Shown: piece after piece, positions 44,190 to 60,634 of the stretch
Layout of the letters: each line of letters opens with the position of its first letter
Position numbering within the stretch: the first letter of the stretch is position 1
Assembly (NCBI RefSeq): GCF_015751905.1
Contig: NZ_JADOUF010000001.1
Span: 248,001 to 312,000 of the forward strand
Source of the DNA: Longispora fulva
GTDB taxonomy: Bacteria; Actinomycetota; Actinomycetes; Mycobacteriales; Micromonosporaceae
DNA length: 64,000 nt
Direction of reading: 5' to 3'
The notes under the pieces: model-generated
What the model was told of the DNA's origin: nothing
Database searches by the model: none
What the model saw: the letters and a program-made list of their open reading frames with translations, nothing else
Translations under genes and position numbers: made by a program

Positions 44190-45989
44190 TTACAGGGTCA
44201 GCGACCAGTAGTCAAGGGTGCCCTGGTCGCCGGGGCCGTAATCGGTGACCCGCAGCTGCCAGGTCCCGGAAGCGGCCGAGGCGACCCCGGTGGCGGTGAA
44301 CGTCCGCTCCCCGTTCCACGGCGTGCACGGGTAGTTGCCGCTGCCGGAGAACTTCACGGTGTACACCTGCCCGCCCGGCGCGACGAGGGAGATGCCCAGG
44401 TCCTCCGAGCAGGTGTGGCTGAGCCCGATCCGCAGGCTGACCGAGGTCGCGGCCTGTCCGGTGGCCGTGGAGGTCACCGGGCTGAAGAGGCGCTGGTTGT
44501 CGCGGATCGGGTAGTCGGTGTCGCTGCGGAAGGTGCGGGCCGGGGCTCCGCCGGTGACGGTAAGGGTGTACTCGACGGCGTGGGTCAACGCCGGGTCGCT
44601 GGCAGCCGTGCCGAGGACGGTGATCGGGTAGGTGCCGGCCGGCGTGGTCGAGGAGGCCGAGACGGTCATCGTCGACGAGGCCCCCGACTGCACGGAGTTC
44701 GGGTTGAGGGTGACGGTGATCCCCACTGGCGCGGCGGCCCCCATGCTGGCGGTGAGGTTCACAGTCCGCGCGCTTCCGACGGTGGTGGCCGTGTTCACCG
44801 TGGTGGTCGTGGAGGCTCCGGCGGCGACGGTGCCCGAGGCCGGGCTGAGGCCGATCGAGAAGTCGCCGGCCGGATCGGATCCGGTGACCCGCAGCGTGTA
44901 GGTGGCGGTGTGCGTTGCTGATCCCGTGCCGGTGACCGTGATCGGATAGGTCCCCGGCGGGGTGTTCGCGCTGGTCGCGAGTGTGAGAGTCGACGAGGAG
45001 CCGGACTGCACCGAGGTGGGGGAGAACGAGGCGGTGACGCCACTGGGCAGGCCCGATGCGCTCAGGGCGACGGACTGGGCGGCTCCGGAGGTCGTGGCCG
45101 TGTTCACGGTGACGCTCGCGGCCTGGCCCGGCCCGACGTCGCCGCTGGTCGGGCTGGTCGACACCGAGAAGTCATTCGCGGGGGTACCGGTGCCCAGGTG
45201 CCGCCAGCCCGACTGGTCCCCGTGCCCGTCGATGATTTTCTGGATGTTGGCGGCCTGGTCGACCACCCGCATGCCCATCTGCGGGCCGTTGCAGTTGGAG
45301 TCGCCCCCGGAGTGCACGGCGATCAGCTTTGCGCCGACGACATACCCGGCTCCGCTGTCACCCACGCAGGTGCCGACGTCGCCGTTCACGGGGCCGAAGC
45401 ACAGGATCTTGCCGGTCTTGAAGTCGTAGCCCTTGTCCTTGCAGGTCTGCTCGGTCGTGACGGGGAAGGTGGCCTTGCGGGCGATCGTGGAGTTGGTGCC
45501 GCCGCCGATCTGGCCCCAGCTGATCATCGTGGAGTTGGTGCCGACCGCCTCGTCGGCGGCGGTGCCGATCTGGACGTAGGAGGTGCCGACGGGTTTGGCC
45601 AGGACCCAGATGCCGATGTCGCCGCACTGCAGTCCCTCGTTGCAGTTCGGGTAGTCAGGGTGCAGCCACGCGTCGACCGGCTTCACCTCGATCCCCTCGG
45701 TAGTGGCCATGTCGGTGCGCCCGACGATCACGGTGCGCACGTCCCAGGTCTCCACCTTCATCGTGCAGTGCCCGGCCGTCATGAACAGCGTCGGCGACAG
45801 CAGCACCCCGCTACACGACTCGCGGTACGGGTGCGCGCTGCCCGGCCGGGTGCTCACCGCCGCCCAGGGATAGTCCGCGACGGATACCGGGGTGCCGCCC
45901 CGGATCGCCTCGGCCGTACCCGGCAGGGTCAGGACCGCGAGCACGGCGACGGCCAGCGCGGCGAGTGTCCTCATAGTCAGTTTTCGCAT
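44190..45989 (-). CDS. Secreted trypsin-like serine protease (S1) with two Ig-like repeats and a P domain
   Basis: A 599-residue exported protease. A signal peptide ([23 protein letters not shown]) leads into an S1 domain beginning IRGGTPV. The triad is His in FMTAGHC, Asp in CGDIGIWVL and Ser in [10 protein letters not shown]; the usual GDSGG is GDSGA. Two ~90-residue Ig-like repeats follow (DFSVSTSP and DFSIGLSP), each ending TYPITV and YTLTV-like strands. The last ~125 residues are a proprotein-convertase P domain ([14 protein letters not shown] to LDYWSLTL). These modules recur in the other proteases of this island. The start is ATG 45989 or ATG 45974; neither has a good ribosome-binding site, so a leaderless message is possible. 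The conserved CAAGGG box lies 32 bp upstream. Confidence 0.9.
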
Positions 45990-46020: not shown

Positions 46021-46039
46021 GAATCCGGGGAATCCCTTG
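46021..46039 (-). promoter_or_regulatory. CAAGGG box 1 (upstream of the 44190-45989 protease)
   Basis: On the minus strand the site reads CAAGGGATTCCCCGGATTC. It is one half of a divergent pair with box 2, 54 bp away. No clear TANCGT element occurs at the usual offset. Confidence 0.65.
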
Positions 46040-46092
46040 TCGTGGGCATGTCACTCGACGGCTGTGCCTGCGTGCGTCCGCCGAGGTGAAGA

Positions 46093-46137
46093 CAAGGGAT
46101 TGTTCTGTATAAATGTACGGAGGTCAGACCGTAGCTT
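46093..46137 (+). promoter_or_regulatory. CAAGGG box 2 with TAGCTT element (subtilisin gene promoter)
   Basis: CAAGGGATTGTTCTGTATA at 46093-46111, with TAGCTT at 46132-46137, exactly 39 bp from the box start. TATAAA at 46108-46113 is an alternative -10. If TAGCTT is used, the message would begin at or near the ATG at 46144. Confidence 0.65.
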
Positions 46138-46143
46138 GTGGCC

Positions 46144-48348
46144 ATGAAACCTCTTATCAGGGCAATCCCCCTCGCAATGGTGATCGGCCTGTTCGGCGCC
46201 GCGCCGGCTCTGGCCGCGACGGATGCGGTCGAGCCGGCCCCGCTGCTGAGCGCGGGACAGTCGGTGGTCGGCGAGTACATCGTGGTGCTGAAGGACAACG
46301 CCGGCCTGGTGCCCGACAACCCGCTGCCGACCTTCGGGCTCACGGCGAGCGAGGCGCGGGTCAAGTACACCTACAACGTCGCACTACGGGGCTTCGCGGC
46401 CTCGCTCACCGACGAGGCGCTGGCGAAGGTCCGGCGCAATCCCGCTGTGAAGTACGTGTCCACGAACGGGATCAACCACATGGCCTCGGCGGCCCCGGTC
46501 ACCCAGGACAACCCGCCGAACTGGGGGCTGGACCGGGTCGACCAGGCGAACCTGCCGCTGGACAAGAAGTACACCTACAACGCCGACGGATCCGGGGTGC
46601 GGATCTATGTCGTGGACGGCGGGATCCGCTCCACGCACACCGACTTCGGCGGCCGGGTCGCGGTCAGCGAGGGCCATTCGATCTTCGACGACGGCAACGG
46701 CACCGAGGACTGTCCCTCCAACGGGCACGGCACCCACGTCGCGAGCACGGCCGGCGGCACCCTCTACGGGGTAGCGAAGAAGGCAACCCTGGTGCCGGTG
46801 CGCCAGTTCCAGGGCTGCAACACGTCCAACACGGACGCCGACGTCGTCAAGGCCACCGACTGGGTGACAGCCAACGCGAAGAAGCCTGCCGTGGCGAACT
46901 TCAGCACCGGCGACCCGGACCTGACCCACCCGACCGTCGACGACGCGATCGAACGGCTCAGCGACTCCGGGGTGACCGTGGTGGTCGCTGCGGGCAACAA
47001 CTCCAAGGACGCGTGCCAGACCTCGCCGTCGAACCGGAAGAAGCTGATCTCGATCGGCGCGATCGACAACACCGACTCCTTCGATGTCGGCACCGACTGG
47101 GGCACGTGCGTCGACCTGTTCGCGCCCGGAGTGAACATCGTCGCCGCCAACGCCGCAGCCGACACCGGCTCGACCACGAAGTCCGGCACGTCGATGGCGT
47201 GCCCGCACGCGGCCGGCGCCGCAGCCCTCTACCTGCAGGGCAACCCGACCGCGACGCCCGCGCAGGTCGAGGCCGCCCTGGTCAACGCCGCCTCGAACGT
47301 CACCATCAAGAACGTGCCCGGCACCGGTTCGCCGAGCAAGGTGCTCAACATCAGCTCCTTCGGCGGCGGCACCACGACGAACGACTACTCCCTGGCCGTC
47401 AGCCCCGGCTCCGGGACCGTCAATGCCGGCTCCTCGGTGACCGCGACCGTGTCCACCTCGGTCGTGGCGGGCACCCCGACCGCGATCACCCTGACGGCCA
47501 CGGGCCTGCCGTCCGGGGCCACGGCGTCGTTCAGCGCGAGCACGGTGACGCCCGGCGCCTCGTCTACCCTGACCGTCGCCACCTCGGCCACCACCCCGCC
47601 GGGCACCTACCCGGTGACCGTCACCGGCACCGGCTCGGCGACCCACACCGCCACCTACAGCCTCACCGTGACCGGAACCGGGCCGACGACGAACGACTTC
47701 TCGGTGTCGCTGAACCCGTCGTCCGGGTCCGTGCCGGCCGGCGGCACGGGCACGTTCTCGGTATCCACGGCCGTCGTGTCCGGCAGCCCTGAGACGGTCG
47801 CGCTGACCGCGAGCATGGGCGGCGTCGGCCCGGTCGGGATCGGGGTCGCCTTCAACCCGGCCAGCGTCCAGACCGGCGGGTCGTCCACAGCCACCGTGAC
47901 CGTCGGCGCCTCCGTGCCGGCCGGGACGTACGCCCTCACCGTGGTGGCGTCCGGATCGGTGACCCGCACCGCCGAGTACCAGCTGACGGTGTCCACCTCC
48001 AGCGGACGCACCTTCCGCAGCGACACCGACTACCCGATCCGGGACAACACCCGGATCTTCAGCCCCGTGTCGTCGACCGCGACCGGCCAGGCCGCCAACC
48101 CGGTGACGGTGAAACTCGCCATCACCCACCCGTGCTCCGAGGACCTGGGCGTCACGCTCGTGGCCCCGGGCGGGCAGCTCTACACCCTGAAGTACAGCGG
48201 GGGCTGGGACTGCACCGCGTGGACCGGGGAGCGGTCCTTCACCGTGCCGAACGTCAGCTCGCCCGCGACGGGTACCTGGCAGCTGCGGGTGACCGACTAC
48301 GGCTACGGCGACGAGGGCACCCTCGACTGGTGGTCGGTGACCCTCTAG
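46144..48348 (+). CDS. Secreted subtilisin-like protease (S8) with I9 propeptide, two Ig-like repeats and a P domain
   Basis: A 734-residue exported protease. After the signal peptide ([20 protein letters not shown]) comes an inhibitor-I9-type propeptide ([12 protein letters not shown] to AVKYVSTNG). The S8 catalytic domain has Asp in IYVVDGGI, His in NGHGTHVAS and Ser in [12 protein letters not shown]. Two Ig-like repeats (starting DYSLAVSP and DFSVSLNP) and a P domain ([14 protein letters not shown] to DWWSVTL) complete it, nearly the same order as in the divergent S1 protease. The ATG at 46144 is preceded by GTGGCC; the nearest GGAGG is about 20 bases upstream, so the message may be leaderless. 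Confidence 0.92.
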
Positions 48349-48363
48349 CCCGCCCGACAGCGT

Positions 48364-48392
48364 GGGGCCGTGGTCCCGGACGCCACGGCCCC
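48364..48392 (+). terminator. Terminator of the subtilisin gene
   Basis: A perfect 10-bp stem, GGGGCCGTGG with CCACGGCCCC, and a 9-base loop, 15 bp past the stop. Confidence 0.75.
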
Positions 48393-48479
48393 GCGATCGG
48401 CGGTCCGGCCCCATGCTGTCCGCGCGCGCCTCGACGACCCGGCCTCTCGAACAGCGCCCCCGGCCGCTGAACTGCGGAG

Positions 48480-48524
48480 CAAGGGTTTTCTCCGTTTCAG
48501 GAGCACGCGCGCGCTGCCTACCGT
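48480..48524 (+). promoter_or_regulatory. CAAGGG box 3 with TACCGT element
   Basis: CAAGGGTTTTCTCCGTTTC at 48480-48498; TACCGT begins at 48519, exactly 39 bp from the box start. It lies about 65 bp upstream of the first streptogrisin-like gene. Confidence 0.75.
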
Positions 48525-48588
48525 TCACCAGTGCCAGTGATCCACGTCACCGGCACGCAACACATCCGCGCAACCAAGGAGTCACACA

Positions 48589-50191
48589 GTGGCGTTCACA
48601 CACAAGAAGCGGGCTGCGGGGGGCGCTTTCGGTGCGCTCGCGTTCGCGGTGCTCGGCGTCGGGGCGATCATGCCCGCCTTCGCCGGTACCCCCCGCGCCC
48701 ACCGACGCGGCGTCGCCGGAACTGGTCGCGTCGCTGTCGCGCGATCTGGGCATCACCCCGCAGCAGGCCCTCACCCGGCTCGCCCAGCAGGACGCGGCAC
48801 ACGCGGTCGCCGGCAGGCTCGGTGTGGAGTTCACCTCCGCGTCGTGGTTTGACCCCGCCACCGGGAAGCTGAACGTCGCGGTCACCGACGCCGCCGGCGC
48901 CGACCGGGTACGGGCGGCCGGGGCCGTACCGAAGATCGTCACCCGCTCACAGGGCGAGCTGGCCGGGCTGGCGGGCAACATCGGCAACCTCGCCGCCGGG
49001 GTGCCCGGGGTCAACGGCTGGGCGGTGGATCCGCGCACGAACACCGTGACGGTCACCGTCAACAGAAACGCCCGCACGGAACGCACCGAGGCGTTCGTCA
49101 GCCGGCTCAAGGCCCTCGGCGACGTGATCCGGGTCGTGGATACCACCTCCGCCCAGCACCAGCAGTCCGGGGTGGTCACCAACGGCGACCCATGGTGGCC
49201 GGGCACCGAGACGAACTGCTCGATCGGATTCGCGGCCGCCGACTCCTCCGGTGGCCAGCACTTCCTCACCGCCGGGCACTGCACGAACGACGTCAACCAG
49301 GCCGCCTACGGCAAGAACTCGTCTGGCTCGAAGGGGGAGCAGCTCGGCACCTCCAACACGGGCGGCAGCCGCAGCGTCAACGGCAACGAGGGCGACATGG
49401 GAGTCGTCGCCGTCAACCAGAACGGCTGGACGCTGAGCAACGCCGTCAACACGTGGGGCGCGGCGCCGGTCAGCGTCAACGGCAGTGCCGACGCGGTCGT
49501 CGGAGACGCGATCTGTCACTCCGGCAACACCACGCACCTGCGGTGCGGCACGGTCACCGAGGTCAACAAGTCCATCCAGTACGTCGACGCCAACGGCAAC
49601 CCGACCGTGCGCGTCGACGGGCTCACCCAGACCAACGCGTGCTCCAACGCCGGTGACTCCGGCGGCGCGTACTACATGGGCTCGGGCAGCACGGCCAAGG
49701 CCGTCGGCCTGCACTCCGGCGGCGGCAACCCCTGCGGACAAAGTGACCCGGACACCACCTTCCAGCCGCTCAACGAGGCGCTGCAGAAGTGGAACCTGAC
49801 CCTGTACACGGGCGGCGCGCAGCCGACCAGCTCGCCCACGGTCAAGCCCACCGCGTCCCCGACCGTTTCCCCGACCGTGCGGCCCACCGCCTCGCCGACC
49901 GCCAGCCCGACCGGTGCGCCGGGCGCGACGGTCACCGTCACCAACCCGGGCAACCAGTGGAGCTTCGCCGGCTGGCAGGCCTTCGCCGTCCAGATCCGGG
50001 CCACCGACAGCAAGGGCCTGCCGCTGACCTACACGGCCACCGGCCTGCCGGCGGGGCTGGCCATCAGTTCCTCCGGTCAGATCACCGGGACCCCGACCAG
50101 CGTCGGCACCTCCACGGTGAAGGTGACGGCGACCGACTCGGGCGGCGCGTCGGGGAGCACCACGTTCAGCTGGCAGGTCACCGGCTGGTAG
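48589..50191 (+). CDS. Secreted streptogrisin-like serine protease with a frameshift between signal peptide and propeptide
   Basis: AAGGAG and GTG 48589 start a perfect signal peptide (GAFGALAFAVLGVGAIMPAFAG). The rest of the protein lies in another frame: removing one C from the six-C run at 48689-48694 joins the signal directly to a propeptide (APTDAASPELVASLSRDLGI). The mature S1E-type protease has His in FLTAGHC, Asp in NEGDMGVVAV and Ser in AGDSGGAYY. A Pro/Thr/Ser linker and a putative Ig (He_PIG-like) domain follow. Apart from that base the gene is intact and closely resembles the gene at 60669. As written no exported product would form. Sequencing error, recent mutation or slipped-strand switching are all possible. 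Confidence 0.87.
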
Positions 50192-50306
50192 TCGCCGCCG
50201 GCCGGGAGCTCTGTCTGCTCGGACTCCCGGCCCGCGGTCCACGACCGCTACGCCGCCCACACCGAGAAGGTCGCTCGGGAACAAAGACCTCCTGTGAGGG
50301 GAGAGG

Positions 50307-50347
50307 AAGGGCCGGTTCCGGGACGTCGCTCCCCGGAGCCGGCCCTT
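50307..50347 (+). terminator. Terminator, duplicated copy 1
   Basis: A 16-bp stem, AAGGGCCGGTTCCGGG with CCCGGAGCCGGCCCTT (one mismatch), followed by T residues. A close copy, with similar flanks, occurs at 60531-60572. Confidence 0.8.
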
Positions 50348-50383
50348 TCCCCGCAGTCCCCGGTGATGGGAAAGCGGTCAGGA

Positions 50384-50402
50384 CAAGGGTTTCCTCTGCT
50401 TC
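50384..50402 (+). promoter_or_regulatory. CAAGGG box 4
   Basis: CAAGGGTTTCCTCTGCTTC. The region 39 bp on is only GAGGCT, a poor match. It precedes the small relic gene and the HTH paralogue B. Confidence 0.55.
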
Positions 50403-50486
50403 GCCGGGCGGGGCCGAGGGGTGAGGCTGGGTCTCCCATCCCATGAGCTGCCCCGGTCGGGTGCGGTCTCCTTCTAAGGATCTGCC

Positions 50487-50663
50487 ATGGCACGAACCCC
50501 CCTCGGTACCCGCACCTGTCCGCTGACCGGGGTCACGCTGCTGGCCGGCGCGGCGACGTCGGCGTTTCAGCCCAACGGCACCTACCGCCGGTCGACGGTC
50601 TCCGGAACGCACAAGGCCGACAGCGGCGCGGGTGGCTACACCCTCGCGGTCACCAGACCGTGA
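50487..50663 (+). CDS. Small exported-peptide-like gene, probably a remnant of a secreted hydrolase
   Basis: A 58-residue ORF with ribosome-binding site AAGGA 6 bases before the ATG. The N-terminus looks like a weak signal peptide (CPLTGVTLLAGAATSAF). The end (TYRRSTVSGTHKAD, then GGYTLAVTRP) looks like pieces of the pre-peptidase C-terminal domain of secreted proteases. A large internal deletion of a protease gene that kept the promoter box and both ends would produce this. It ends 7 bp before the HTH paralogue B gene, so the two should be co-transcribed. Confidence 0.45.
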   Translation: MARTPLGTRTCPLTGVTLLAGAATSAFQPNGTYRRSTVSGTHKADSGAGGYTLAVTRP

Positions 50664-50670
50664 CCAGCCG

Positions 50671-51612
50671 ATGACCGCCAACGGCCCTGGCCGGAACCCG
50701 TCCTCGGACGGCTCCGCCGAAGTGGCACAGACGTTCGCCGACGCGTTGCGAACAGCGGTGGGCGCCACCGACCTGAGCCTGCAACGGATGCGTCACCGCC
50801 TGGACCTGCTCGGCATCAGCATCAGCGTCGCGACCCTCAGCTACTGGCAGTCGGGTCAGCGACTGCCGTCCCGACGCCATACCCGGGCCGTGCTACCGGC
50901 CCTGGAGTCCGTCCTGGCCCTGCCACCGGGCACATTGTCGAGCCTGGTTCGTCATCCTGGACCTCGGACACGGTCCGATGCGCCCAGTATCCTGGCGGAG
51001 GGCGGACTGTGGCCGGATCCCGCCAGGGTGTCGTCGCTGCTGGGGCAGGTGGACACCCGGTGGGACCACCGCCTGACCCGAATCAGCCAGCACGACCGGG
51101 TCCTGGTGAACGCCGATCGCACGGAGCACTCCCTGTGGTCCATGCAGGTGCTGCGCGCCATCGTCGACGGCCCCGACCGGTGGGTCGCCGTCGTACACCG
51201 CGTCGATGAACCTGCATGCCCACCGCCGGTTGTCACGGGTCTGCGCAACTGTCACCTGGGCCGCCTGGTGCATGATCGAGAGTCCGGTCTTCTCGCGACG
51301 GAGCTGTTGTTCGACCGACCGCTGATGCGCGGCGAGACGTTGATCACCGAACACCTCCTCACCTTCGGCCGTCCGGCGCCGCTGGCGTTCCACTACGAAC
51401 GCAAACTGCCCTACCGGGTACGGATGTACACCCAGGAGGTGTGCTTCGCCTCTTCCGCACGGCCCCGGCGGATCCGGAGCCTGTCGCGTCCCGCCGACGG
51501 GATCAGCTGGAACCTCGTGCGGGATCTGCACCTCAACGCCTCGTCGCGGGCGCATCTGGTCCTCCTCGACGCGGATCCCGGCGTCTATGGCACGGAATGG
51601 GACTGGGGTTAG
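50671..51612 (+). CDS. Putative HTH regulator of the uncharacterised family (paralogue B)
   Basis: A 313-residue protein with the family's N-terminal helix-turn-helix (MRHRLDLLGISISVATLSYW, then QSGQRLPS) and a helix LESVLALPPGTLSSLV. The C-terminal beta-rich half has ATELLFDRPLMRGETLITEH and ends GVYGTEWDWG. It aligns along its length with the genes at 15861-16772 and 52194-53054. It lies 7 bp after the small relic gene and downstream of box 4, inside the protease island, so it may respond to or control this regulon (inference). It has no strong ribosome-binding site of its own; translation is perhaps coupled. Its stop overlaps the convergent gene by 4 bp. Confidence 0.72.
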   Translation: MTANGPGRNPSSDGSAEVAQTFADALRTAVGATDLSLQRMRHRLDLLGISISVATLSYWQSGQRLPSRRHTRAVLPALESVLALPPGTLSSLVRHPGPRTRSDAPSILAEGGLWPDPARVSSLLGQVDTRWDHRLTRISQHDRVLVNADRTEHSLWSMQVLRAIVDGPDRWVAVVHRVDEPACPPPVVTGLRNCHLGRLVHDRESGLLATELLFDRPLMRGETLITEHLLTFGRPAPLAFHYERKLPYRVRMYTQEVCFASSARPRRIRSLSRPADGISWNLVRDLHLNASSRAHLVLLDADPGVYGTEWDWG

Positions 51613-51947
51613 TCCGCCGAGGGTTCGTCCGCCCGGTCGGGCCGCTCGTCCTCAGCGTCGGGCCCAGTTGGTGGCGACGGGTCAACAGGGTCGTGGCACC
51701 GGCGTGACCGGTCGGCGCGGAACCGTGCGTGTGACGGGTACTCCAGATGCAGTCCCCCGCGCAGCCATGCCTCCGCCCACTGGCGCATCCCGAACGGCCA
51801 CAGGTGCAGGCATGTCGGACGTGAATCCGATACGGCGGGATCACCGACATCGAGGTCGAACTGTTCGAGGGACATGGCGGCCGGTCCGTCGACCGCCTCC
51901 GTCGGGTTGCACTCGGGCGCACCGTCCCCAGCGGCCTGCTCGACCAC
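51609..51947 (-). CDS. Hypothetical protein with strong ribosome-binding site
   Basis: A 112-residue protein. AAAGGAG lies 6 bases before GTG 51947. The middle (RPTCLHLWPFGMRQWAEAWL and HLEYPSHARF) is well-behaved coding sequence; the end is Pro/Asp-rich and disordered. No family was recognised. It is on the same strand as paralogue C upstream. Between them (51948-52193) is a short AT-richer segment and a possible minus-strand relic near 52105-52200. Confidence 0.5.
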   Translation of the reverse strand: MVEQAAGDGAPECNPTEAVDGPAAMSLEQFDLDVGDPAVSDSRPTCLHLWPFGMRQWAEAWLRGGLHLEYPSHARFRADRSRRCHDPVDPSPPTGPDAEDERPDRADEPSAD

Positions 51948-52193
51948 GGGCAGCTCCTTTCCTCGCGTCGCAGAAGACTCATGTGGAGTGTGGAGGGACC
52001 ACCATCGCCGGTCAATAAGCAATGAAAAAGGTGAATTGTCAACAATGCGAGTCCTGCGCCGCCCCCCGGTGTCAGGCGGCCGGCGCAGGTCACCCGGTCG
52101 GTCAGCCGGCCACGGCGTCGGCGTGCTCCCACTCCAGATCGCGGGTGTACGGCGACCGGCACCCGATCCAGTGCCGGTACATCCGCACCCTGT

Positions 52194-53054
52194 TCACCAT
52201 TCCCAACGAACTCCGGTCGCCCCTCTGGGACAGTCGCGGGTCAGGGACACCGCGACCGTGTCGGCGTCGAGAGTCAGTGGTCGCGTGCGTACCACTCCGC
52301 CCGCAGGAGCCACGAACTCCCAACACCGGGCCGGACGCAGGGCAGGGTCGAAGTGGACCTCGGTCACCTGCTGGGGGACGGGATTCTGGTGGAAGTGCGT
52401 CATCGCGGACTCCACCCGGGGCGGGTCGCACACGACCTCGTACTCGACCATGACAGTTTCGCCCCGTGACAGGGCCCCGTCGAGCAGCAGCTCGGTGAGC
52501 CGGCGGCGCGCGCCAAATGGCTGCGTGCGGCCCACGGCGCAGTTGCGCAGTGGCGTGATGTGCGGAGCCCGGTTTCCCTTGTCCGTCATCGTGAGCACCA
52601 TCAGGCGGTCCGGACCGTCGGCTGCGGCGCGGAGCGTCTGCTGGTGGGTCAGCCGTTGGATGGTGCGGTCCGGGCCGACATGGCAATGACCGTGTCCGTT
52701 CACGCTCACCAGTGGGAAGTTCCATCCGGAGCAGAACTTCCTGATGGTGGAAGCGAGTCCGGGAATCGTCGGAAGCCCGGCTGCCGCGTCCTCGCGGAGC
52801 GACTCCAGCATTCCTCGGGTGAGTGCGCCGGTGGGAAGTTCCAGCAGATCCTCGAGGCACACCAGGATGACGGCTGACCGCGGGCTCCTGGGTATGCGGC
52901 GGCCGTCCCTCCAGTAGCTCAATGTTGGTCCGGTGGTGGAGATCCCTCGCCGGCGTAGGTGCGCGACGATGGAGAGCAGGCTCAGGCCACGTGCGGCAAT
53001 TGCCTCACTGAGTACGTGGGCGAGAGAGTCCGGCCGGGGCTCAGGATCAGCCAT
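52194..53054 (-). CDS. Putative HTH regulator of the uncharacterised family (paralogue C)
   Basis: A 286-residue protein. The N-terminal helix-turn-helix region (LLSIVAHLRRRGISTTGPTL, then SYWRDGRRIP) and the helix LEDLLELPTGALTRGM match the other two paralogues. The C-terminal half shows LTELLLDGALSRGETVMVEY and ends GATGVRWEW. It is encoded on the minus strand, 582 bp from the end of paralogue B. A recognisable though weaker CAAGGG box lies 60 bp upstream of its ATG, at promoter distance. Function is unknown; a regulator of the protease genes is a hypothesis. Confidence 0.72.
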   Translation of the reverse strand: MADPEPRPDSLAHVLSEAIAARGLSLLSIVAHLRRRGISTTGPTLSYWRDGRRIPRSPRSAVILVCLEDLLELPTGALTRGMLESLREDAAAGLPTIPGLASTIRKFCSGWNFPLVSVNGHGHCHVGPDRTIQRLTHQQTLRAAADGPDRLMVLTMTDKGNRAPHITPLRNCAVGRTQPFGARRRLTELLLDGALSRGETVMVEYEVVCDPPRVESAMTHFHQNPVPQQVTEVHFDPALRPARCWEFVAPAGGVVRTRPLTLDADTVAVSLTRDCPRGATGVRWEW

Positions 53055-53113
53055 GTTCGTTGTGCAGTCGGCGGTGAAGCATCACTTCATGCTCTACACC
53101 GACGGAGCACAAG

Positions 53114-53132
53114 GATGCGGAGTTCTCCCTTG
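53114..53132 (-). promoter_or_regulatory. CAAGGG box 10 (upstream of HTH paralogue C), degenerate
   Basis: Minus strand CAAGGGAGAACTCCGCATC keeps CAAGGG, CTCCG and the final TC. A TAGAGC element starts 36 bp from the box start, at 53096. Confidence 0.4.
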
Positions 53133-53249
53133 CAAACCCACAAAGCGCAATTGTTAACGACATCGGGGTGGGCACGACGAACTCGTTGCTACTCGGGGGT
53201 ATGCAGAGGCGGCCTACGCGAGGCTTCCCGCTGCGCCGGTTCGTCGAGG

Positions 53250-53393
53250 TCAGGCCGGGTGTTGTACCTGGGCGCCGGGAGTGGTCGGGCCGGGCTTCGG
53301 GGTCGACGGACCCGCTGGTGTCGCGTCAGGGCCGCACGCGGCGATGACGACGAGGACCATGGCGATCAAGGGCAGAACTAGGAGTCGACGCAT
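53250..53393 (-). CDS. Small lipoprotein
   Basis: A 47-residue protein: basic start, hydrophobic core and lipobox IAAC (MRRLLVLPLIAMVLVVIAAC), then a short Pro/Thr/Gly-rich tail. It should be a membrane-anchored lipopeptide of about 28 residues. Box 6 with a perfect TAGCGT element ends 8 bp before its ATG, implying a leaderless transcript under the same control as the proteases. Function is unknown. Confidence 0.55.
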   Translation of the reverse strand: MRRLLVLPLIAMVLVVIAACGPDATPAGPSTPKPGPTTPGAQVQHPA

Positions 53394-53400
53394 CCTGTGG

Positions 53401-53445
53401 ACGCTAGCCACCCGCGATGACTCCAGGAATGGGGGAAACCCCTTG
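53401..53445 (-). promoter_or_regulatory. CAAGGG box 6 with TAGCGT element
   Basis: Minus strand CAAGGGGTTTCCCCCATTC at 53427-53445, with TAGCGT at 53401-53406, again 39 bp from the box start. It forms a divergent pair with box 5. Confidence 0.7.
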
Positions 53446-53532
53446 ACCAGTACCTGCGGGGTGCGTCGGGGCCTGCTTCTGAACGGACCCTCACCGTGCC
53501 ATTTCCCGAGGTGCGCTTCTGACACCTGTGAG

Positions 53533-53576
53533 CAAGGGGATTCTCCGTTTCGGCGGTCCATCGATGTTCATAACGT
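53533..53576 (+). promoter_or_regulatory. CAAGGG box 5 with TAACGT element
   Basis: CAAGGGGATTCTCCGTTTC at 53533-53551; TAACGT at 53571-53576, 38 bp from the box start. Confidence 0.72.
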
Positions 53577-53612
53577 GGCGGACGTTCCCACCCACCACGC
53601 CAAGGGGCCCTC

Positions 53613-55052
53613 ATGCGAAGAATCATCCTCATCCTGCTCGCCGGCCTGGCCGCGGCGCTGCTGCCCGCGGCCGGCGCCCAGGCGGTCAAGGGCGGCACCG
53701 ACACCACGACGGCCGAGTACCCGTGGACGGTGGTCATCACCCGGCCCGGTAGCCCGCATCCGCAGCATGTGTCCTGCGGCGGCGCGCTGGTCCGACCGAA
53801 CAAGGTCCTCACCGCCGCGCACTGCCTGGACGCCACCCTGGGCGACGTCAAGGACAAGACGGTGATGTACGGCCGCGACGACCTGACCACCACGGCCGGC
53901 GTCGAGGCGAAGATCTCCAGCTACTGGGTGCACCCGGACTACGTCTCGGGCAAGCTCGATGGCGACGACATCGCGATCCTCACCCTGGACAAGAACGTCG
54001 GCGCCTCGGTCGTGCAGGTGGCCACTGACCCGGCCACCAACGCCGTGGGGACCAACCTGACGTTGAGCACCTACGGCTTCACGTCCTCGACGCCCACATT
54101 CACCTCGCACATCCAGAAGGCGACACTTCCCATCGTCGAGAACGCCAAGTGCACCGACCTGGGATGGAAGTTCAACGCCGACAAGCAGCTGTGTCTCGGC
54201 CCGACGAAGAACGACACCCTTGGCGTGTGCAAGGGCGACAGCGGCGGCGGGGTGGTCGCCGGCACCCCGGCCACCGGGTACAAGCTCGTGGGCCTGATCG
54301 AGTCCGGTGACACCAACTGCGCCGGCCCGCAGGTCACCTCCCAGCTCACCCACTACGCCGAGATCATCCGACAGCAACTCGACGGCGCGCCCACCCGCGA
54401 CTTCTCCCTGGCGATGAGCCCGGCCGCCGGCACGGTGGCTCCCGGTTCGTCGGCCACGACGACCGTGGCCACCACCACCGTGTCCGGGGAGCCACAGACC
54501 GTCGCGTTGTCGGCCTCGGGCGCGCCGGCTGGGGTGACCGTCACCTTCAACCCGGCCTCGGTAACCACGGGCCAGAACGCGACGGCGACGATCAGCGTTG
54601 CGGCCACCGCGGCCGGCGGCACCTACCCGATCACGGTCTCTGCTTCTGGTACGACCAGCCACACGGCCACCTACACGCTCACCGTCGAGGGCGGCGGCAA
54701 CCCGCCGGGCACCCACACGTTCACCAGCACGAGGACGTACTTCGTCCCCGACCCCGGCAGTGTCGACAGCCCGATCACGGCCACCGGCACCGGATCGGCC
54801 GCCAGTACGGTGACCGTCACGGTGAAGGCCAGCCACTGGTGCGGCGCGGAACTGGCGATCGTGCTCGTCGCACCCGACGGCCGCCAGTACCCCGTGAAGT
54901 CCGCCTCGACCGGCGCGTGCGCCAGCTTCAGCGGCGGCACCTACCAGGTGCCCGGAGTGTCCGCGCCGATCGCGGGGACCTGGACGTTGCGCGTCACCGA
55001 CACGAAGGCCTGGAACTTCGGCGCCCTCAACGGCTGGACGCTCACCGCGTGA
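53613..55052 (+). CDS. Secreted trypsin-like serine protease (S1) with one Ig-like repeat and a P domain
   Basis: A 479-residue exported protease. The signal peptide (MRRIILILLAGLAAALLPAAGA) is followed by an S1 domain starting VKGGTDT, with triad His in TAAHC, Asp in DDIAILTL and Ser in CKGDSGGGVV. One Ig-like repeat (DFSLAMSPAAG to HTATYTLTV) and a shortened P domain (HTFTSTRTYFV to GALNGWTLTA) follow. The S1 domain is clearly different in sequence from that at 44190, so the shared part is the C-terminal architecture. The promoter is box 5; the ATG is at 53613 with only a weak ribosome-binding site. Confidence 0.92.
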   Translation: MRRIILILLAGLAAALLPAAGAQAVKGGTDTTTAEYPWTVVITRPGSPHPQHVSCGGALVRPNKVLTAAHCLDATLGDVKDKTVMYGRDDLTTTAGVEAKISSYWVHPDYVSGKLDGDDIAILTLDKNVGASVVQVATDPATNAVGTNLTLSTYGFTSSTPTFTSHIQKATLPIVENAKCTDLGWKFNADKQLCLGPTKNDTLGVCKGDSGGGVVAGTPATGYKLVGLIESGDTNCAGPQVTSQLTHYAEIIRQQLDGAPTRDFSLAMSPAAGTVAPGSSATTTVATTTVSGEPQTVALSASGAPAGVTVTFNPASVTTGQNATATISVAATAAGGTYPITVSASGTTSHTATYTLTVEGGGNPPGTHTFTSTRTYFVPDPGSVDSPITATGTGSAASTVTVTVKASHWCGAELAIVLVAPDGRQYPVKSASTGACASFSGGTYQVPGVSAPIAGTWTLRVTDTKAWNFGALNGWTLTA

Positions 55053-55061
55053 CCCCACGAC

Positions 55062-55099
55062 GCACCGGCGCCCCCCGAGTCAGCGGGCGGCGCCGGTGC
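55062..55099. terminator. Bidirectional terminator between convergent genes
   Basis: A perfect 11-bp stem, GCACCGGCGCC with GGCGCCGGTGC, and a 16-base loop, between the protease stop (55052) and the MFS stop (55105). Confidence 0.7.
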
Positions 55100-55104
55100 G
55101 GCGG

Positions 55105-56571
55105 TCAATGCTCCTGCGGGTGGCCGTGTCGGGGGAGGAACCAGGAGGCCAGCAGGGTCGCGGCGAGCAGGGCGACCTCGACCCACAGCGTGACCTCCAT
55201 CGGGCCTGTGAAGGCCCCGGGCGTTCCCGGCGCGAGGTGGTCCGCCCCGCCGAGGGATCCGAAGAGCACGGTGCCGAGGACCGCGACGCCCAGGGCCGCG
55301 CCGAGCTGCTGGACGGCGGTCAGGGTGCCCGATGCGGAGCCGGACTCGTGCGGGTCGACGGCGGACAGCACGGTGCCGAAGAACGGGCCCATGATGAGTC
55401 CCATTCCCAGGCCGGTGAGGACCAGCGCCGGGGCGAGCCGCCAGCCGGTGGGGTCGGCATCCAGGGTGGCGATGAACGCCGCGATGCCGGCGGCCATCAC
55501 CACGGTGCCGGACTGGATCACCGCGCGCCCAGGCTCGGTGCGCTTCTCCGCGAAATGGAGGGCCACGAAGCCGAGGATCAGCCCCGCCGACCAGGGCAGG
55601 CTCGCCAGGCCGGCCTGAACCGGGGAGTAGGCGAGGCCGAGTTGCAGGTACAGGCTCAGGACCAGGGAGAAGCCGGCGACGGCGGCGAAGAAGACCGTGC
55701 CCATCGCCAGGCCGCCGGCGAACGCCCGTTTGCGGAACAGGCTCGGCACGACCAGCGGGTCGCCGCCGGCTTTCGCCACGCGCGACTCGTACCAGCCGAA
55801 GAGTGCGAACGTGGCGATCCCGGCACCGAGGCAGCCGAAGGTCCAGGCGGGCCAGCCCAGTTCGCGGCCCTGGACGAGCGGGTAGACGACCAGCAGGGCC
55901 GCCAGCGACGCCAGCGCGACGCCGACCAGGTCGAGGCGGGGCCGGTCGGGGCTGCGCGACTCGGGCAGGAACCGCCACCCGCCGAGCAGGGCGCACACGC
56001 CCAGCGGCAGGTTGATCAGGAAGATCGTACGCCAGCCGGCGCCGAGCGGGTCGAGCTGGATCAGCCAGCCGGCGAATACCGGGCCGCCCACATAGGCCAG
56101 ACCCATCACCGGGCCGAACATGCCGAACGCCTGGCCGAGTTCGCGGCCGTGGAACATCTCCTTGATGATGCCCAGCCCCTGCGGGATCATGATGGCGCCG
56201 AACAGGCCCTGCAGGCCCCGGGCCCCGATCAGCATGCCGGGGGAGTCGGCGACCGCGCATGCCAGGGACGCCGCGGTGAACCCGGTGGCGCCGATCAGGA
56301 ACATGCGTCTGCGGCCGGCGATGTCGCCCAGTCGCCCGCCGGTGATGAGCCCGACCGCCATGGCCAGGGCGTAGGCGGCCCCGAGCCACTGCATCGTGCT
56401 CGCGCCACCGCCCAGGTCGGCGCGGATGGCCGGTGAGGCGATGGTGGCGATCAGCGCGTCGAGCATGTCCATCGCCTCGGCGACGAGCAGCACGGCCAGG
56501 GCGGGCCAGCGCCACCGGTACACAGAGAATTGTTCGAGGGTGGCAACGCCACGGGGGTGAATGTCAGTCAT
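55105..56571 (-). CDS. MFS transporter, 14-helix DHA2 drug exporter type
   Basis: A 488-residue membrane protein of the DHA2 drug:proton antiporter group. Motif A is seen as GGRLGDIAGRRRMFLIG, and motif C-like GPVMGLAYVGGPVFAGWLI occurs in helix 5; about 14 helices are predicted. The ATG at 56571 was chosen; an upstream in-frame codon would add a non-conserved tail. A 7-bp inverted repeat ~100 bp upstream looks like a repressor operator, but no regulator gene is adjacent. Its place inside the protease island may be incidental. Confidence 0.9.
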   Translation of the reverse strand: MTDIHPRGVATLEQFSVYRWRWPALAVLLVAEAMDMLDALIATIASPAIRADLGGGASTMQWLGAAYALAMAVGLITGGRLGDIAGRRRMFLIGATGFTAASLACAVADSPGMLIGARGLQGLFGAIMIPQGLGIIKEMFHGRELGQAFGMFGPVMGLAYVGGPVFAGWLIQLDPLGAGWRTIFLINLPLGVCALLGGWRFLPESRSPDRPRLDLVGVALASLAALLVVYPLVQGRELGWPAWTFGCLGAGIATFALFGWYESRVAKAGGDPLVVPSLFRKRAFAGGLAMGTVFFAAVAGFSLVLSLYLQLGLAYSPVQAGLASLPWSAGLILGFVALHFAEKRTEPGRAVIQSGTVVMAAGIAAFIATLDADPTGWRLAPALVLTGLGMGLIMGPFFGTVLSAVDPHESGSASGTLTAVQQLGAALGVAVLGTVLFGSLGGADHLAPGTPGAFTGPMEVTLWVEVALLAATLLASWFLPRHGHPQEH

Positions 56572-56672
56572 TGCCGTCCCAGTCTCGTGATGAGAGAGGG
56601 ACGCACCGGGCACGACCACCAGGGTGTGCTGAGGGCTCCAAGGCCCCGCCCGGACTAACCACTACCGGGAAC

Positions 56673-56697
56673 CGTATTTTCGCGCGTCCGAAATACG
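56673..56697. promoter_or_regulatory. Inverted repeat upstream of the MFS gene, possible TetR/MarR-type operator
   Basis: CGTATTT, 11 bases, AAATACG: a perfect 7-bp inverted repeat in an AT-richer patch, about 100 bp before the MFS start. Confidence 0.5.
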
Positions 56698-56813
56698 TAG
56701 ATCACCGTAGCAGACACCCGGACCAGTGATCGGCGGGCCGGCAGGGTGTCATCCGTCACGATGCCGGCAAGCTGAGGCGCTGGCCGGGACCTGCGGCTCG
56801 GCCCCATCCCCCG

Positions 56814-56832
56814 GATACCGGGAAAGCCCTTG
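56814..56832 (-). promoter_or_regulatory. CAAGGG box 7 (no clear target gene)
   Basis: Minus strand CAAGGGCTTTCCCGGTATC. At the 39-bp offset there is only CAGGTC. It faces the MFS gene 240 bp away and pairs divergently with box 8. Confidence 0.45.
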
Positions 56833-56895
56833 ACCTGGTCGGATCTCGACACCTGGGGCAGCTCGGACCTCAAGGGGGCCTTAACAATGCCGCGT

Positions 56896-56940
56896 CAAGG
56901 GTTTCCTCCGTTTCCGTGGGCGTCGATCTCTTGTTAGCTG
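56896..56940 (+). promoter_or_regulatory. CAAGGG box 8 with TAGCTG element
   Basis: CAAGGGTTTCCTCCGTTTC at 56896-56914; TAGCTG at 56935-56940, 39 bp from the box start. Confidence 0.72.
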
Positions 56941-56991
56941 CCCGTTATCCGCGCCATCGGTGTGCGCGGATGGAGTCGAAGGAGTGCGCAC

Positions 56992-59900
56992 ATGAGGCGT
57001 AGAGCCGGGTTACCGGTCGCAGCGGCCGGGATCGCCCTCGCGGTGGTCGCCGGCACGGCGGCGGCGTTGTCGTGGTCGGCGGCGCAGTCGCCGTCCGCAC
57101 AGGCGTCCGATCCCGTCGGGTTGGCGGTCGCCGCCGCCGACCGGGCGGCCCTGAGCGGGCTGGACGCGCTGGGCAAGGGCCCCAGCGAGCAGTTCGACCG
57201 CCGAGCGGTGTACCGGGGCGGCGACCCGGGTCAGCGGGACCTGTACTACGTGTCCTACGACCGCACCTACAAGGGACTTCCGGTAGTGGGTGGCGATGCT
57301 GTCGTGGCCACCGACGCCGCCGGGCACGTGCTGACCACAGCCTCGGCGTCGCACACGGCGATCTCGGTGCCGATCGCCGCGACCGTCACCGCCGAGCAGG
57401 CCGCCGTCGCGTCGCGGGCGAAGCTGACCCGGGTCGACACCGTGGGCACGTCCCGTCTCGTGGTGCTGGTCCGTGACGAGCACCCGCGGCTGGCGTGGGA
57501 GACCCTGGTGACGGGCCGCAAGGGTTCCGAGCCCAGCGAGCAGACCGTGTACGTCGACGCGCACAGCGGCCAGGTGGCCGACGCGGTCGAGGGCGTGCAC
57601 GCCGACACCGTCAACGGGTACTACGACGGGACCGTCGACATCGACGCCTCCGCCTCGGGGAGCAACCGCACCCTGGTCGACACCGGCCGCCCGGGCCTGA
57701 AGTGCGGCGACTACAGCACGAAGAGCGTCTACACGAACACTTCTACCAGTTGGGGCAACGGTTCCGGCACGGATCTGAAGACCGCCTGCGCCGAGGCGTT
57801 CTACGCCGTCGGCCGCGAGTGGGACATGCTGAAGAACTGGCTGGGCCGCAACGGGATCGACGGCAACGGCAACGCGGTGCCGATCTACGTCAACGAGGGC
57901 GACGTCAACGCGCACTGGTACAACGGCCAGGGCTACGCCGCCTTCGGGCACAACCAGCCCAACGACCGCCAGCTCGTGGCCCTCGACGTGGTCGGGCACG
58001 AGATGGGGCACGGGCTCGACGAGTACACCCCGGGTGGCACCTCTTCCGAGGCGGGGCTGGGCGAGGGCACCGGGGACATCTTCGGCTCCCTGACCGAGGC
58101 GTACGCGAACAACCCCAAGGACAGGCCCGACTTCGAGGTCGGCGAGGTCGTCAGCCTCCAGGGCGACGGCAAGCCGCTGCGGTACATGTACGACCCGTCC
58201 AAGGACGGCCGCAGCCCCAACTGTTACTCGTCGAGCATCCCGAACACCGAGGTGCACGACGCTGCGGGGCCCCTGAACCACTGGTTCTACCTGCTGGCCG
58301 AGGGCACCGCCCCGACGGACGGGCAGCCGACGAGCCCGACCTGCAACAGCAGCACGCTGACCGGGGTCGGGATCCAGAGCGCCGGCAAGGTGTTCTACAA
58401 CGCGATGCTGCTCAAGACGTCGGGGATGACGTACAAGAAGTACCGCATCGCCACCCTGCAGGCCGCAAAGAGCCTCGACTCCACGTGTGCTCTGTTCACC
58501 AAGACCAAGGCCGCGTGGGACGCGGTGACCCTGCCGGCGCAGTCCGGTGAGGCGACGTGCACCGGCACCCCTGGCAATGATTTCTCGGTCTCGTTGAGCC
58601 CGGCGAGTGGCAGCGTCCAGCCGGGCGCCTCGACCACCGTCACCGTGGGCACGACGACGACGAGCGGCACCGCGCAGACCGTGAACCTCAGCGCGTCCGG
58701 GCAGCCGTCCGGGGTCACGGTGTCGTTCAGCCCCGCGTCGGTGCAGAGCGGCGCGAACGCCACGATGACCGTCGCCGCCTCGACCTCCGCGACCGCAGGC
58801 ACCTACACCGTCACGGTGACCGGGACCGGATCGGCGACGCACACGGCGACCTACGCCCTGACCGTCGGCGGCGGGAACCCGAACCCCGGCGGCGCGCCGG
58901 ACATCGACGTGGCCAAGGTGCAGGCGCACCTGGCCCAGTTGGGCACGATCGCCTCGCAGAACGGCGGCACCCGCCGGGCCGGATCGGCCGGGCACACCCA
59001 GTCCGTGGCGTACATCAAGGGCAAGTTGCAGGCGGCCGGCTTCACGGTCACCGAGCAGAACTGCACCAGCTGCACCTACGTCTCCAACAACCTGATCGCC
59101 GACTGGCCGGGCGGCGACACCAACAACACCGTCATGTTCGGCGCGCATCTCGACAGCGTCAGCGCGGGGCCGGGCATCAACGACAACGGCTCCGGGTCGG
59201 CGTCGATCCTGGAGGCGGCCCTCGCCCTGGCGCAGGCCAACCCGACGATGACCAAGCACGTGCGGTTCGGCTGGTGGACGGACGAGGAGCAGGGCCTCAA
59301 CGGCTCCAAGTTCTACGTCAACTCCCTCACCGCCGCGCAGAAGAGCGCGATCAAGGGGTACTACAACTTCGATATGGTCGCCTCGCCCAACGGCGGGTAC
59401 TTCATCAACAACCTGACCACCGCGACGTCGGCGCCGATGAAGGCGTACTGGGACTCGCTGAACCTGGCGCCCCAGGAGAACGTCGAGGGCCAGGGCCGCT
59501 CCGACGACGCGTCGTTCCAGAACGGCGGCGTCCCCACCTCCGGGTACGCGACCGGGGCCAACGCCACCAAGTCGCCGGCGGAGGCCACCAAGTGGGGCGG
59601 CACGGCCGGGCAGGCGTATGACTCCTGCTACCACCAGTCGTGTGACACCACCTCCAACATCAACGCGACCGCGCTCAACCGCAGCGCGGACGGCATCGCG
59701 TACACCATCTGGAATCTGGCCGTGGGGACCAGCACCGTCAACGACTTCTCGGTGACGGTCAGTCCGAGCTCGGGCACCGCGAACCTGGGCCAGTCGTTGA
59801 CGACGACGGTTAACACGGCCACCACCTCGGGCGCGGCCCAGTCGGTGGCCCTGACGGCGAGCAACGTGCCGGCCGGGGTGAAAGTGACCTTCAGCCCGTC

Positions 59901-60426
59901 GTCGGTGACGTCGGGGTCCAGCGCCACGGCGAACATCTCGGTGGCCACCAACGCGACCCCGGGCACCTACACGATCACCGTGACGGGTACGGGCTCTGCC
60001 ACCCACACCAGCACCTACACCCTGACCGTCACCGACGGGGGCTCCAGCCCGTCGCCGAACCCGACCACGCCTCCGCCGACCGGGCGGACGTTCACCAACG
60101 ACACGGACTTCCCGATCAACGACAACCGGATCACCAGCTCGGTGAACTCCACCGCGACCGGGCAGGCGACCACGCCGGTCACCTTGTCGGTCACGATCAA
60201 CCACACCTGCGCCGAGGACCTCGGGATCAGCCTGATCGCCCCCAACGGCCAGGTGTACGCGGTCAAGTACTCCGGCACCGGCAACTACCCCTGCACCCCG
60301 TTCGGCGGCCAGAAGTCCTACAGCGTGCCGGCGAACTCGGCCGCCTCGGGAACCTGGCAGCTGCGGGTCACCGACTACGGGCCCGGCGACACCGGCGTGC
60401 TCGACACCTGGTCGGTCACCCTGTGA
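56992..60426 (+). CDS. Secreted double metallopeptidase: M4 thermolysin-like fused to M28 aminopeptidase, with Ig-like repeats and a P domain
   Basis: A 1144-residue exported protein. After the signal peptide ([19 protein letters not shown]) come an FTP/PepSY-type propeptide (~45-205) and an M4 domain with [10 protein letters not shown] (zinc site HExxH) and a downstream EGTGDIFG glutamate; the M4 histidine is in LNHWFYLL. An Ig-like repeat ([11 protein letters not shown]) separates it from an M28 aminopeptidase: [41 protein letters not shown] and the late histidine in CYHQSCDT. A second Ig-like repeat and a P domain ([13 protein letters not shown] to LDTWSVTL) end it. One polypeptide thus carries an endo- and an exopeptidase. 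GAAGGAG precedes the ATG by 7 bases. Confidence 0.9.
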
Positions 60427-60448
60427 CCTCCCACTGAGGGGAGAGGAA

Positions 60449-60486
60449 GGGGCCGGCCCCGGCAAGGCGTCCGCGGGGCCGGCCCC
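60449..60486 (+). terminator. Terminator of the M4-M28 gene
   Basis: A perfect 13-bp stem, GGGGCCGGCCCCG with CGGGGCCGGCCCC, and a 12-base loop. Confidence 0.8.
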
Positions 60487-60530
60487 GACCTGAAAGACCG
60501 CACCACCCATGACCTCCTGAGGGGGAGACG

Positions 60531-60572
60531 AAGGGCCGACTCCGGGATCTGGCTTCCCCGGAGCCGGCCCTT
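60531..60572 (+). terminator. Terminator, duplicated copy 2
   Basis: AAGGGCCGACTCCGGG pairs with CCCGGAGCCGGCCCTT (one mismatch), followed by T residues. Stem and leader closely match 50307-50347, and both copies lie just before a CAAGGG box. Confidence 0.75.
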
Positions 60573-60589
60573 TGCCGGTCACGGCCGCT

Positions 60590-60634
60590 CAAGGGATTCC
60601 CCTGTTTCGGGGAGGCGTCCGGCGTCCCTACCGT
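60590..60634 (+). promoter_or_regulatory. CAAGGG box 9 with TACCGT element
   Basis: CAAGGGATTCCCCTGTTTC at 60590-60608; TACCGT at 60629-60634, 39 bp from the box start. Confidence 0.75.

Follow-up and report, generated by a model that had tools for sequence, protein, structure and literature searches.

Why should six secreted protease genes of several types, lying close together in one genome, all be preceded by the same short sequence? The question is raised by a 64-kb stretch of the Longispora fulva genome (hereafter the window), in which an earlier note had described a box before each of these genes, had called the proteases four unrelated types, and had proposed that the box either binds an activator overlapping the -35 region or belongs to a sigma-factor-specific promoter. 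Pfam assignments confirm a boxed protease in every case: the interval encodes two S1A trypsins, one S8 subtilase, two S1E proteases with an alpha-lytic prodomain, and one M4+M28 peptidase, and a P domain is present in four of the six. The four types are thus those found, although "unrelated" is slightly generous, because S1A and S1E have a common fold. The observation is confirmed as real and is more general than first claimed, and our analysis suggests that the box is probably the operator of a MalT-like LAL activator that switches on secreted proteolysis.

A matrix built from 17 box sequences scores nine boxes in the window above 12 bits, which agrees with the nine clear copies first counted but not with a degenerate tenth, which was not found at this threshold; the seven box sequences quoted at that time are all present, at the same positions and on the same strands. 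The consensus is CAAGGG-N4-CYCNGTWTC, 19 letters long. As originally described, five copies have a TANCGT or TAGCTN element, resembling a -10 element, that begins 39 bases from the box start, and in one the distance is 38. The five with an offset of 39 are CAAGGGATTGTTCTGTATA (46093..46111, +; TAGCTT at 46132..46137, +) before the subtilase gene, CAAGGGTTTTCTCCGTTTC (48480..48498, +; TACCGT at 48519..48524, +) before an S1E gene, CAAGGGGTTTCCCCCATTC (53427..53445, -; TAGCGT at 53401..53406, -) before a lipoprotein-like open reading frame (ORF), CAAGGGTTTCCTCCGTTTC (56896..56914, +; TAGCTG at 56935..56940, +) before the M4+M28 gene, and CAAGGGATTCCCCTGTTTC (60590..60608, +; TACCGT at 60629..60634, +) before the other S1E gene. 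The copy with an offset of 38 is CAAGGGGATTCTCCGTTTC (53533..53551, +; TAACGT at 53571..53576, +), before an S1A trypsin gene. The remaining boxes are CAAGGGATTCCCCGGATTC (46021..46039, -) before the other trypsin-like protease gene, CAAGGGTTTCCTCTGCTTC (50384..50402, +) before a short protease remnant, and CAAGGGCTTTCCCGGTATC (56814..56832, -), which faces an MFS gene at about 200 bases.

Across the whole 8.68-Mb genome, a profile built from nine hand-picked sites (R1), which re-finds its own sites and whose E-values are rough, detects 12 sites at E up to 0.054, with the next match at 0.95. Ten fall within 21 kb, nine of them inside the window and the tenth about 3.2 kb past it, and two are distant. 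The site just beyond the window (315205-) precedes a further S1E gene and has no -10 element. The distant sites were found by the box alone, before their -10 regions were inspected: 7907275+ precedes an S1E protease gene, with TAGCGT at 38, and 4380843- lies upstream of a gene identified as a glutaminase by Pfam and NCBIfam, with TACCGT at 39. By ORF inspection all 12 sites (E <0.06) are intergenic, and 11 of them are oriented toward a protease gene or remnant, a lipoprotein-like ORF or the glutaminase; the genome scan that the earlier note had named as a test therefore did not refute the observation. A degenerate pattern allowing up to two mismatches has 14 matches in the genome vs 1 for the reversed pattern (26 vs 11 at up to three), and the matrix has one match above 20 bits in 1.54 Mb of reversed control sequence. 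Outside the window the two-mismatch pattern has six matches, comprising the three intergenic sites above and three within genes (L011-L013), which carry two mismatches, have no -10-like element and are absent among the R1 matches. In-gene matches are confined to such weaker pattern matches; those at L011-L013, L043 and L044, along with matches in transporter genes of genomes G295 and G318, were dismissed as chance.

Within the box, the dyad consists of three core pairs that are mostly complementary (fractions of 1.0, 0.67 and 0.97 among 33 distinct boxes). A clean long palindrome was considered and rejected, as only this three-pair core was found; the outer bases are asymmetric, which fits the constant orientation of the box toward its gene. 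Among distinct boxes near LAL genes, some of which were detected by models covering the -10 element and many of which are orthologs, TANNNT lies at 38 or 39 in 24 of 35, and only once at all other offsets from 30 to 46. In the window, the ATG lies at offsets 51 and 52 in two genes with a -10-like element and at 50 in a third gene without one. The positions 51 and 52 fit leaderless transcripts starting there, which would place the GGG-N4-CYC core near -43. With such predicted starts, the layout is that of a class II activator site: near -42, overlapping the -35 region, and at a fixed distance from the -10 element. The activator option of the earlier note is therefore supported by a core about 43 bases before the expected start, a box end at a weak -35, and the co-occurring LuxR/LAL gene described below.

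The box extends well beyond L. fulva. In G001, the only other genome of the genus, two good boxes stand before an M4 protease gene and a glutaminase gene whose products are 61.6% and 79.7% identical to those of L. fulva, with TAGCTC and TAGGTT, both at 39. Of the four pattern matches in G001, two are intergenic with the element at 39 and two lie in genes without it; a third, weaker site (16 bits) between LAL and S1E genes has TAGCGT at 38. When 84,980 species genomes were scanned, the pattern matched at 56 places, distributed across Actinoplanes and kin, Streptomyces, Kutzneria, Actinomadura and mycobacteria. BLAST against reference proteases assigned the downstream genes to M4 in 28 cases, S8 in 17 and S1E in one; inspection by eye added two S53 genes (Kutzneria), one more M4 gene (L083) and one non-coding case (L073). 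Elsewhere, then, the box precedes M4, S8, S1E and S53 peptidases. No protease was seen at six of the 56 matches (L097 and the mycobacterial L079, L080, L110, L113 and L118).

The candidate regulator is a LAL protein of about 910 residues, with an AAA ATPase domain of probable STAND type, a predicted repeat region and a C-terminal LuxR/GerE helix-turn-helix. Pfam identifies an N-terminal AAA_16 domain (1e-16, residues 12-163) and a C-terminal GerE domain (1.4e-12, residues 853-905 of 911), with TPR_12 just under its cut-off and no PAS domain. A structure model (pLDDT 91) comprises the ATPase, a long all-helical repeat region and the GerE domain. Its best PDB match is the STAND-TPR structure 6mfv (E 8.4e-10), albeit with TM-scores of only 0.23 and 0.31; lower matches include Avs3 and peptide-binding Rap proteins, the latter being only a hint because TPR folds match many proteins. 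The NCBIfam MalT score is 26.1 bits against a cut-off of 537, and the protein is thus filed as a LAL, not as MalT. L. fulva has one close LAL gene (7904422-7907154), which adjoins the boxed S1E gene and is separated by at least about 1 Mb from the cluster in the window.

The gene for this LAL tracks the box. In a family scan of 150 genomes, L. fulva included, R1 boxes were found in 23 and LALs of at least 400 bits in 39; all 23 box genomes were among the 39, and none was among the other 111 (Fisher p ~5e-17, p-values being only a guide because the genomes are related). With a second, broader profile built from 16 hand-picked sites (R2, E 0.05), 31 of 35 box genomes have the LAL. In a class scan of 394 genomes, 20 of 35 box genomes were among the 30 LAL genomes; within one genus (g70) the overlap was 18 of 20. 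Scans of more than 40 genomes used stricter filters, in which weak matches are lost. The LAL gene is frequently also a neighbor of boxed genes: it lies beside boxed M4 genes, beside boxed S1E genes in Actinomadura and L. fulva, and beside boxed S53 genes in Kutzneria, one locus (L138) reading LAL-S1E-box-glutaminase. The box lies 10 (G118), 12 (G066), 15 (G097), 120 (G000) or 139 bases (G294) from the end of the LAL match. No LAL was found in the 19-kb flanks of either boxed G001 gene, nor in those of the L. fulva glutaminase (L125-L127).

Flanks were covered for part of the LAL matches from both scans, and 93 LAL genes were examined, named loci included: 64 close (379 BLAST bits or more) and 29 distant. 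A box above 20 bits lies within 3.5 kb of 38 of the 64 close LALs, 35 of these also having a protease or glutaminase gene nearby, and near none of the 29 distant LALs; the 400-bit (HMMER), 379-bit (BLAST) and 20-bit box cut-offs were set after the data were seen. The recognition helix of close LALs mostly reads SVKTVEAxLTRxYRK. By script, KT[VI]E occurs in 62 of 64, the other two also reading KTVE, while 24 of 29 distant LALs have KA[VI]E. In 79 loci chosen by LAL only, a peptidase or glutaminase partner accompanies 35 of the 50 close LALs and 14 of the 29 distant ones, at a loose cut-off and with no random-gene baseline; a stricter count on fewer loci gives 27 of 43 and 9 of 28. The LAL habit of adjoining peptidases is thus wider than the box. 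In a FastTree phylogeny of the 93 LALs, there are at least 12 changes of partner family and 14 of box state.

Several observations weigh against this assignment. Within the window, boxes 46039-, 50384 and 56832- have no -10-like element, and the L. fulva glutaminase gene probably starts 391 bases from its box (154 in G001 and 193 in G099), so that a long leader or another start would be needed. Four R2 box genomes in the family scan (G014, G017, G032 and G145) and 15 of the 35 box genomes in the class scan, eight of them in family f2, have no close LAL; about eight chance matches are expected at E 0.02 in 394 genomes. Conversely, 16 of the 39 family LAL genomes have no R1 box and 8 have no R2 box, and no box above 20 bits lies near 26 of the 64 close LALs. 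Among these 26, two (L190 and L270) have weaker boxes with a -10 element at 38; at another four, from genus g70 (L277, L278, L280 and L281), KTVE LALs lie beside S1A trypsin genes with no recognizable box. Moreover, the box was the reason for including 14 of the 64 close loci, and boxless distant LALs also lie beside peptidase-like genes, so adjacency alone is no proof of operator use.

In the mechanism that we propose, the LAL would sense a signal, probably a product of protein breakdown by analogy with MalT, and would bind the GGG-N4-CYC core near -43 as a dimer or oligomer. The bound protein would contact RNA polymerase at promoters whose -35 is poor and whose -10 element resembles TANNNT, and may thereby turn on secreted proteases, plus glutaminase in several lineages. 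It is unlikely that another regulator binds the box and that the LAL gene is only a frequent neighbor. Candidates for such a role include two paralogous helix-turn-helix-like regulators encoded inside the protease cluster (50632-51612+ and 52194-53054-) and a NarL-type response regulator gene near 315205, beside the S1E gene; GGG-N4-CCC-like cores also suit other LuxR-type domains, as described for PAS-LuxR proteins (PMC9774167). The in-cluster paralogs have no Pfam family above cut-off. Their homologs number nine matches in the L. fulva genome and are present in 46 of the 150 family genomes, but of the 23 R1 box genomes, all of which have the LAL, 17 lack any homolog of one paralog (E up to 1e-15), whose best match elsewhere is 37% identical. 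The pair was rejected as box regulator on the distribution of this one member. We consider it quite unlikely that the box is instead a repressor operator overlapping -35, through which the LAL or another protein represses the proteases. The position would suit repression too; one LAL, SCO6993, is reported to be a negative regulator (PMC9628970), and PteF, it is reported, may act negatively on some genes (PMC9774167). The boxed promoters, however, have no good -35, which suits an activator, and MalT is described as an ATP-dependent activator (PMC6389857) and the PAS-LuxR proteins with sites in the -35 region as mostly activators (PMC9774167).

That the entire unit is a special sigma-factor promoter with the box as its -35, the second option of the earlier note, is very improbable. 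The fixed spacing would fit it, and CGT, found in many of the -10 elements, resembles the -10 motifs of extracytoplasmic-function (ECF) sigma factors; ORFs that by eye look like such factors are present close to the LAL of L154 and the glutaminase of L125. Yet the distance from box start to CGT is 41-42 bases, far above the ECF spacer of about 16-17, and variants such as TAAGGT, TACTGT and TACGCT retain TANNNT, not CGT. The sigma-factor reading was rejected on this spacing: box and -10 are too far apart, and the -10 is mostly an ordinary TANNNT. Least credible of all is that the boxes are non-functional remnants of duplicated protease promoters. Ten boxes do lie within 21 kb among paralogous genes, but conservation does not extend to the spacer between box and -10, and in other genera and families the genes that follow the box encode unrelated peptidases and glutaminase, which already contradicts duplication.

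The boxed genes of the window begin with a secreted S1A trypsin with a P domain (44190..45989, -), whose in-frame ATGs lie at offsets 50 and 65 from its box. A secreted S8 subtilase with an I9 inhibitor and a P domain (46144..48348, +) has its ATG at offset 51, a leaderless-type spacing, and is followed by an S1E alpha-lytic-type protease (48589..50191, +). The lipoprotein-like ORF of 47 residues (53250..53393, -) has its ATG at offset 52. Beyond it lie a second secreted S1A trypsin with a P domain (53613..55052, +), the secreted M4 thermolysin-type and M28 peptidase with a P domain (56992..60426, +), which has the boxed relative in G001, and a second S1E alpha-lytic-type protease, also secreted (60669..63047, +; ATG at offset 79). 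In the first S1E gene, signal peptide and prodomain are in different frames near a run of C (48589-48700), reflecting a broken gene, a sequencing error or frameshifting. The still-boxed remnant (50487-50663, ATG at 50487) has 58 codons and by eye is a fusion of a signal-like start with the final part of a C-terminal domain from a protease.

In five genomes of one genus (g7), a box with TAACGT precedes a stretch of about 205 nucleotides (L055:1547-1765+, L062, L057, L063 and L168). Mean column identity in its alignment is 92%, indels break the reading frame, a strong hairpin at the 3' end is followed by T-rich sequence, and the fold z-score is -2.6; the consensus fold has no compensatory change in 59 pairs, and neither the stretch nor the window matches Rfam. 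A DNA search with it found matches in 57 of 150 genomes, five at 290 bits or more and the rest, treated as noise, at 47 bits or less. The stretch looks non-coding and is probably a regulatory RNA of the box regulon. In two Streptomyces loci (L093 and L104), the boxed S8 gene is, by eye, divergent from a gene resembling lytic monooxygenases for chitin or cellulose. In Mycolicibacter and a like genome, a box with TANCGT precedes proteins with secretion-like starts (L110, L113, L118 and L244); the close LAL was not found in the L244 genome (G469) in the class scan, and these sites may represent chance or a related system. Furthermore, five distant boxless LAL paralogs lie within about 300 bases of peptidase-like genes (L188, at G000:C1:8533180, L213, L214, L222 and L224), with a KAVE helix in all except L224, which has KTVE; they perhaps form a sister regulon with another operator.

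More tentatively, and with rather less confidence than in the operator assignment itself, these data may outline a class-wide "MalT for protein": one LAL clade with a nearly fixed recognition helix that would sense oligopeptides set free from protein and whose portable 19-bp box may have captured at least five peptidase families (M4/M28, S8, S1E, S1A and S53), glutaminase and, in one genus, a regulatory RNA, its partners having switched many times while box and spacing were kept. LALs are common in actinomycetes, and in the literature covered an operator or a function beyond antibiotic clusters is known for few of them; the present data give one LAL clade a predicted operator together with a coherent set of genes and a fixed promoter layout, the regulatory module remaining constant while the target enzyme is exchanged. 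If correct, this would account for the coordination of glutaminase with proteases of unrelated ancestry in soil actinomycetes, and could provide inducible promoters for protease production and guide a search for the inducer, plausibly a peptide.

How does the proposed system compare with known ones? AdpA, which controls secreted proteases in Streptomyces, is an AraC-type protein with an unrelated site. The nearest parallel is MalT of Escherichia coli, the founding LAL/STAND activator, which shares the AAA ATPase, the C-terminal LuxR helix-turn-helix, a length of about 900 residues, linkage to polymer-use genes (in its case the maltose regulon) and probably the STAND-type architecture with a repeat-rich sensor region. 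It is a well-studied LAL, described as switched by inducer and ATP (PMC6389857). MalT boxes, in contrast, are short GGA[TG]GA motifs (PMC9628970), vs GGG-N4-CYC here, and the targets here are proteases and glutaminase. Streptomyces antibiotic-cluster LALs (NysRI, PikD, SanG and others) are members of the same family but belong to antibiotic pathways. PAS-LuxR regulators such as PimM (box CTVGGGAWWTCCCBAG) share a GGG-N4-CCC core in the -35 region and a LuxR-type DNA-binding domain, and an activator contacting polymerase at the -35 region has been described for them; these proteins, however, described from antibiotic clusters, contain a PAS domain and are 152-243 residues long (PMC9774167). The PimM box is a 16-bp palindrome, which the present box does not match, having other outer bases (CAA...NGTWTC). 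The earlier note had known of no described regulon with this site, and neither such a description nor one of LAL control of secreted proteases was found in the open-licence PubMed Central literature. LAL proteins and operators near -35 are known kinds, whereas the site is a putative new operator and not the PimM box; to the original observation our analysis adds the boxed glutaminase and distant S1E genes, a candidate regulator, and the distribution of the box across actinomycetes.

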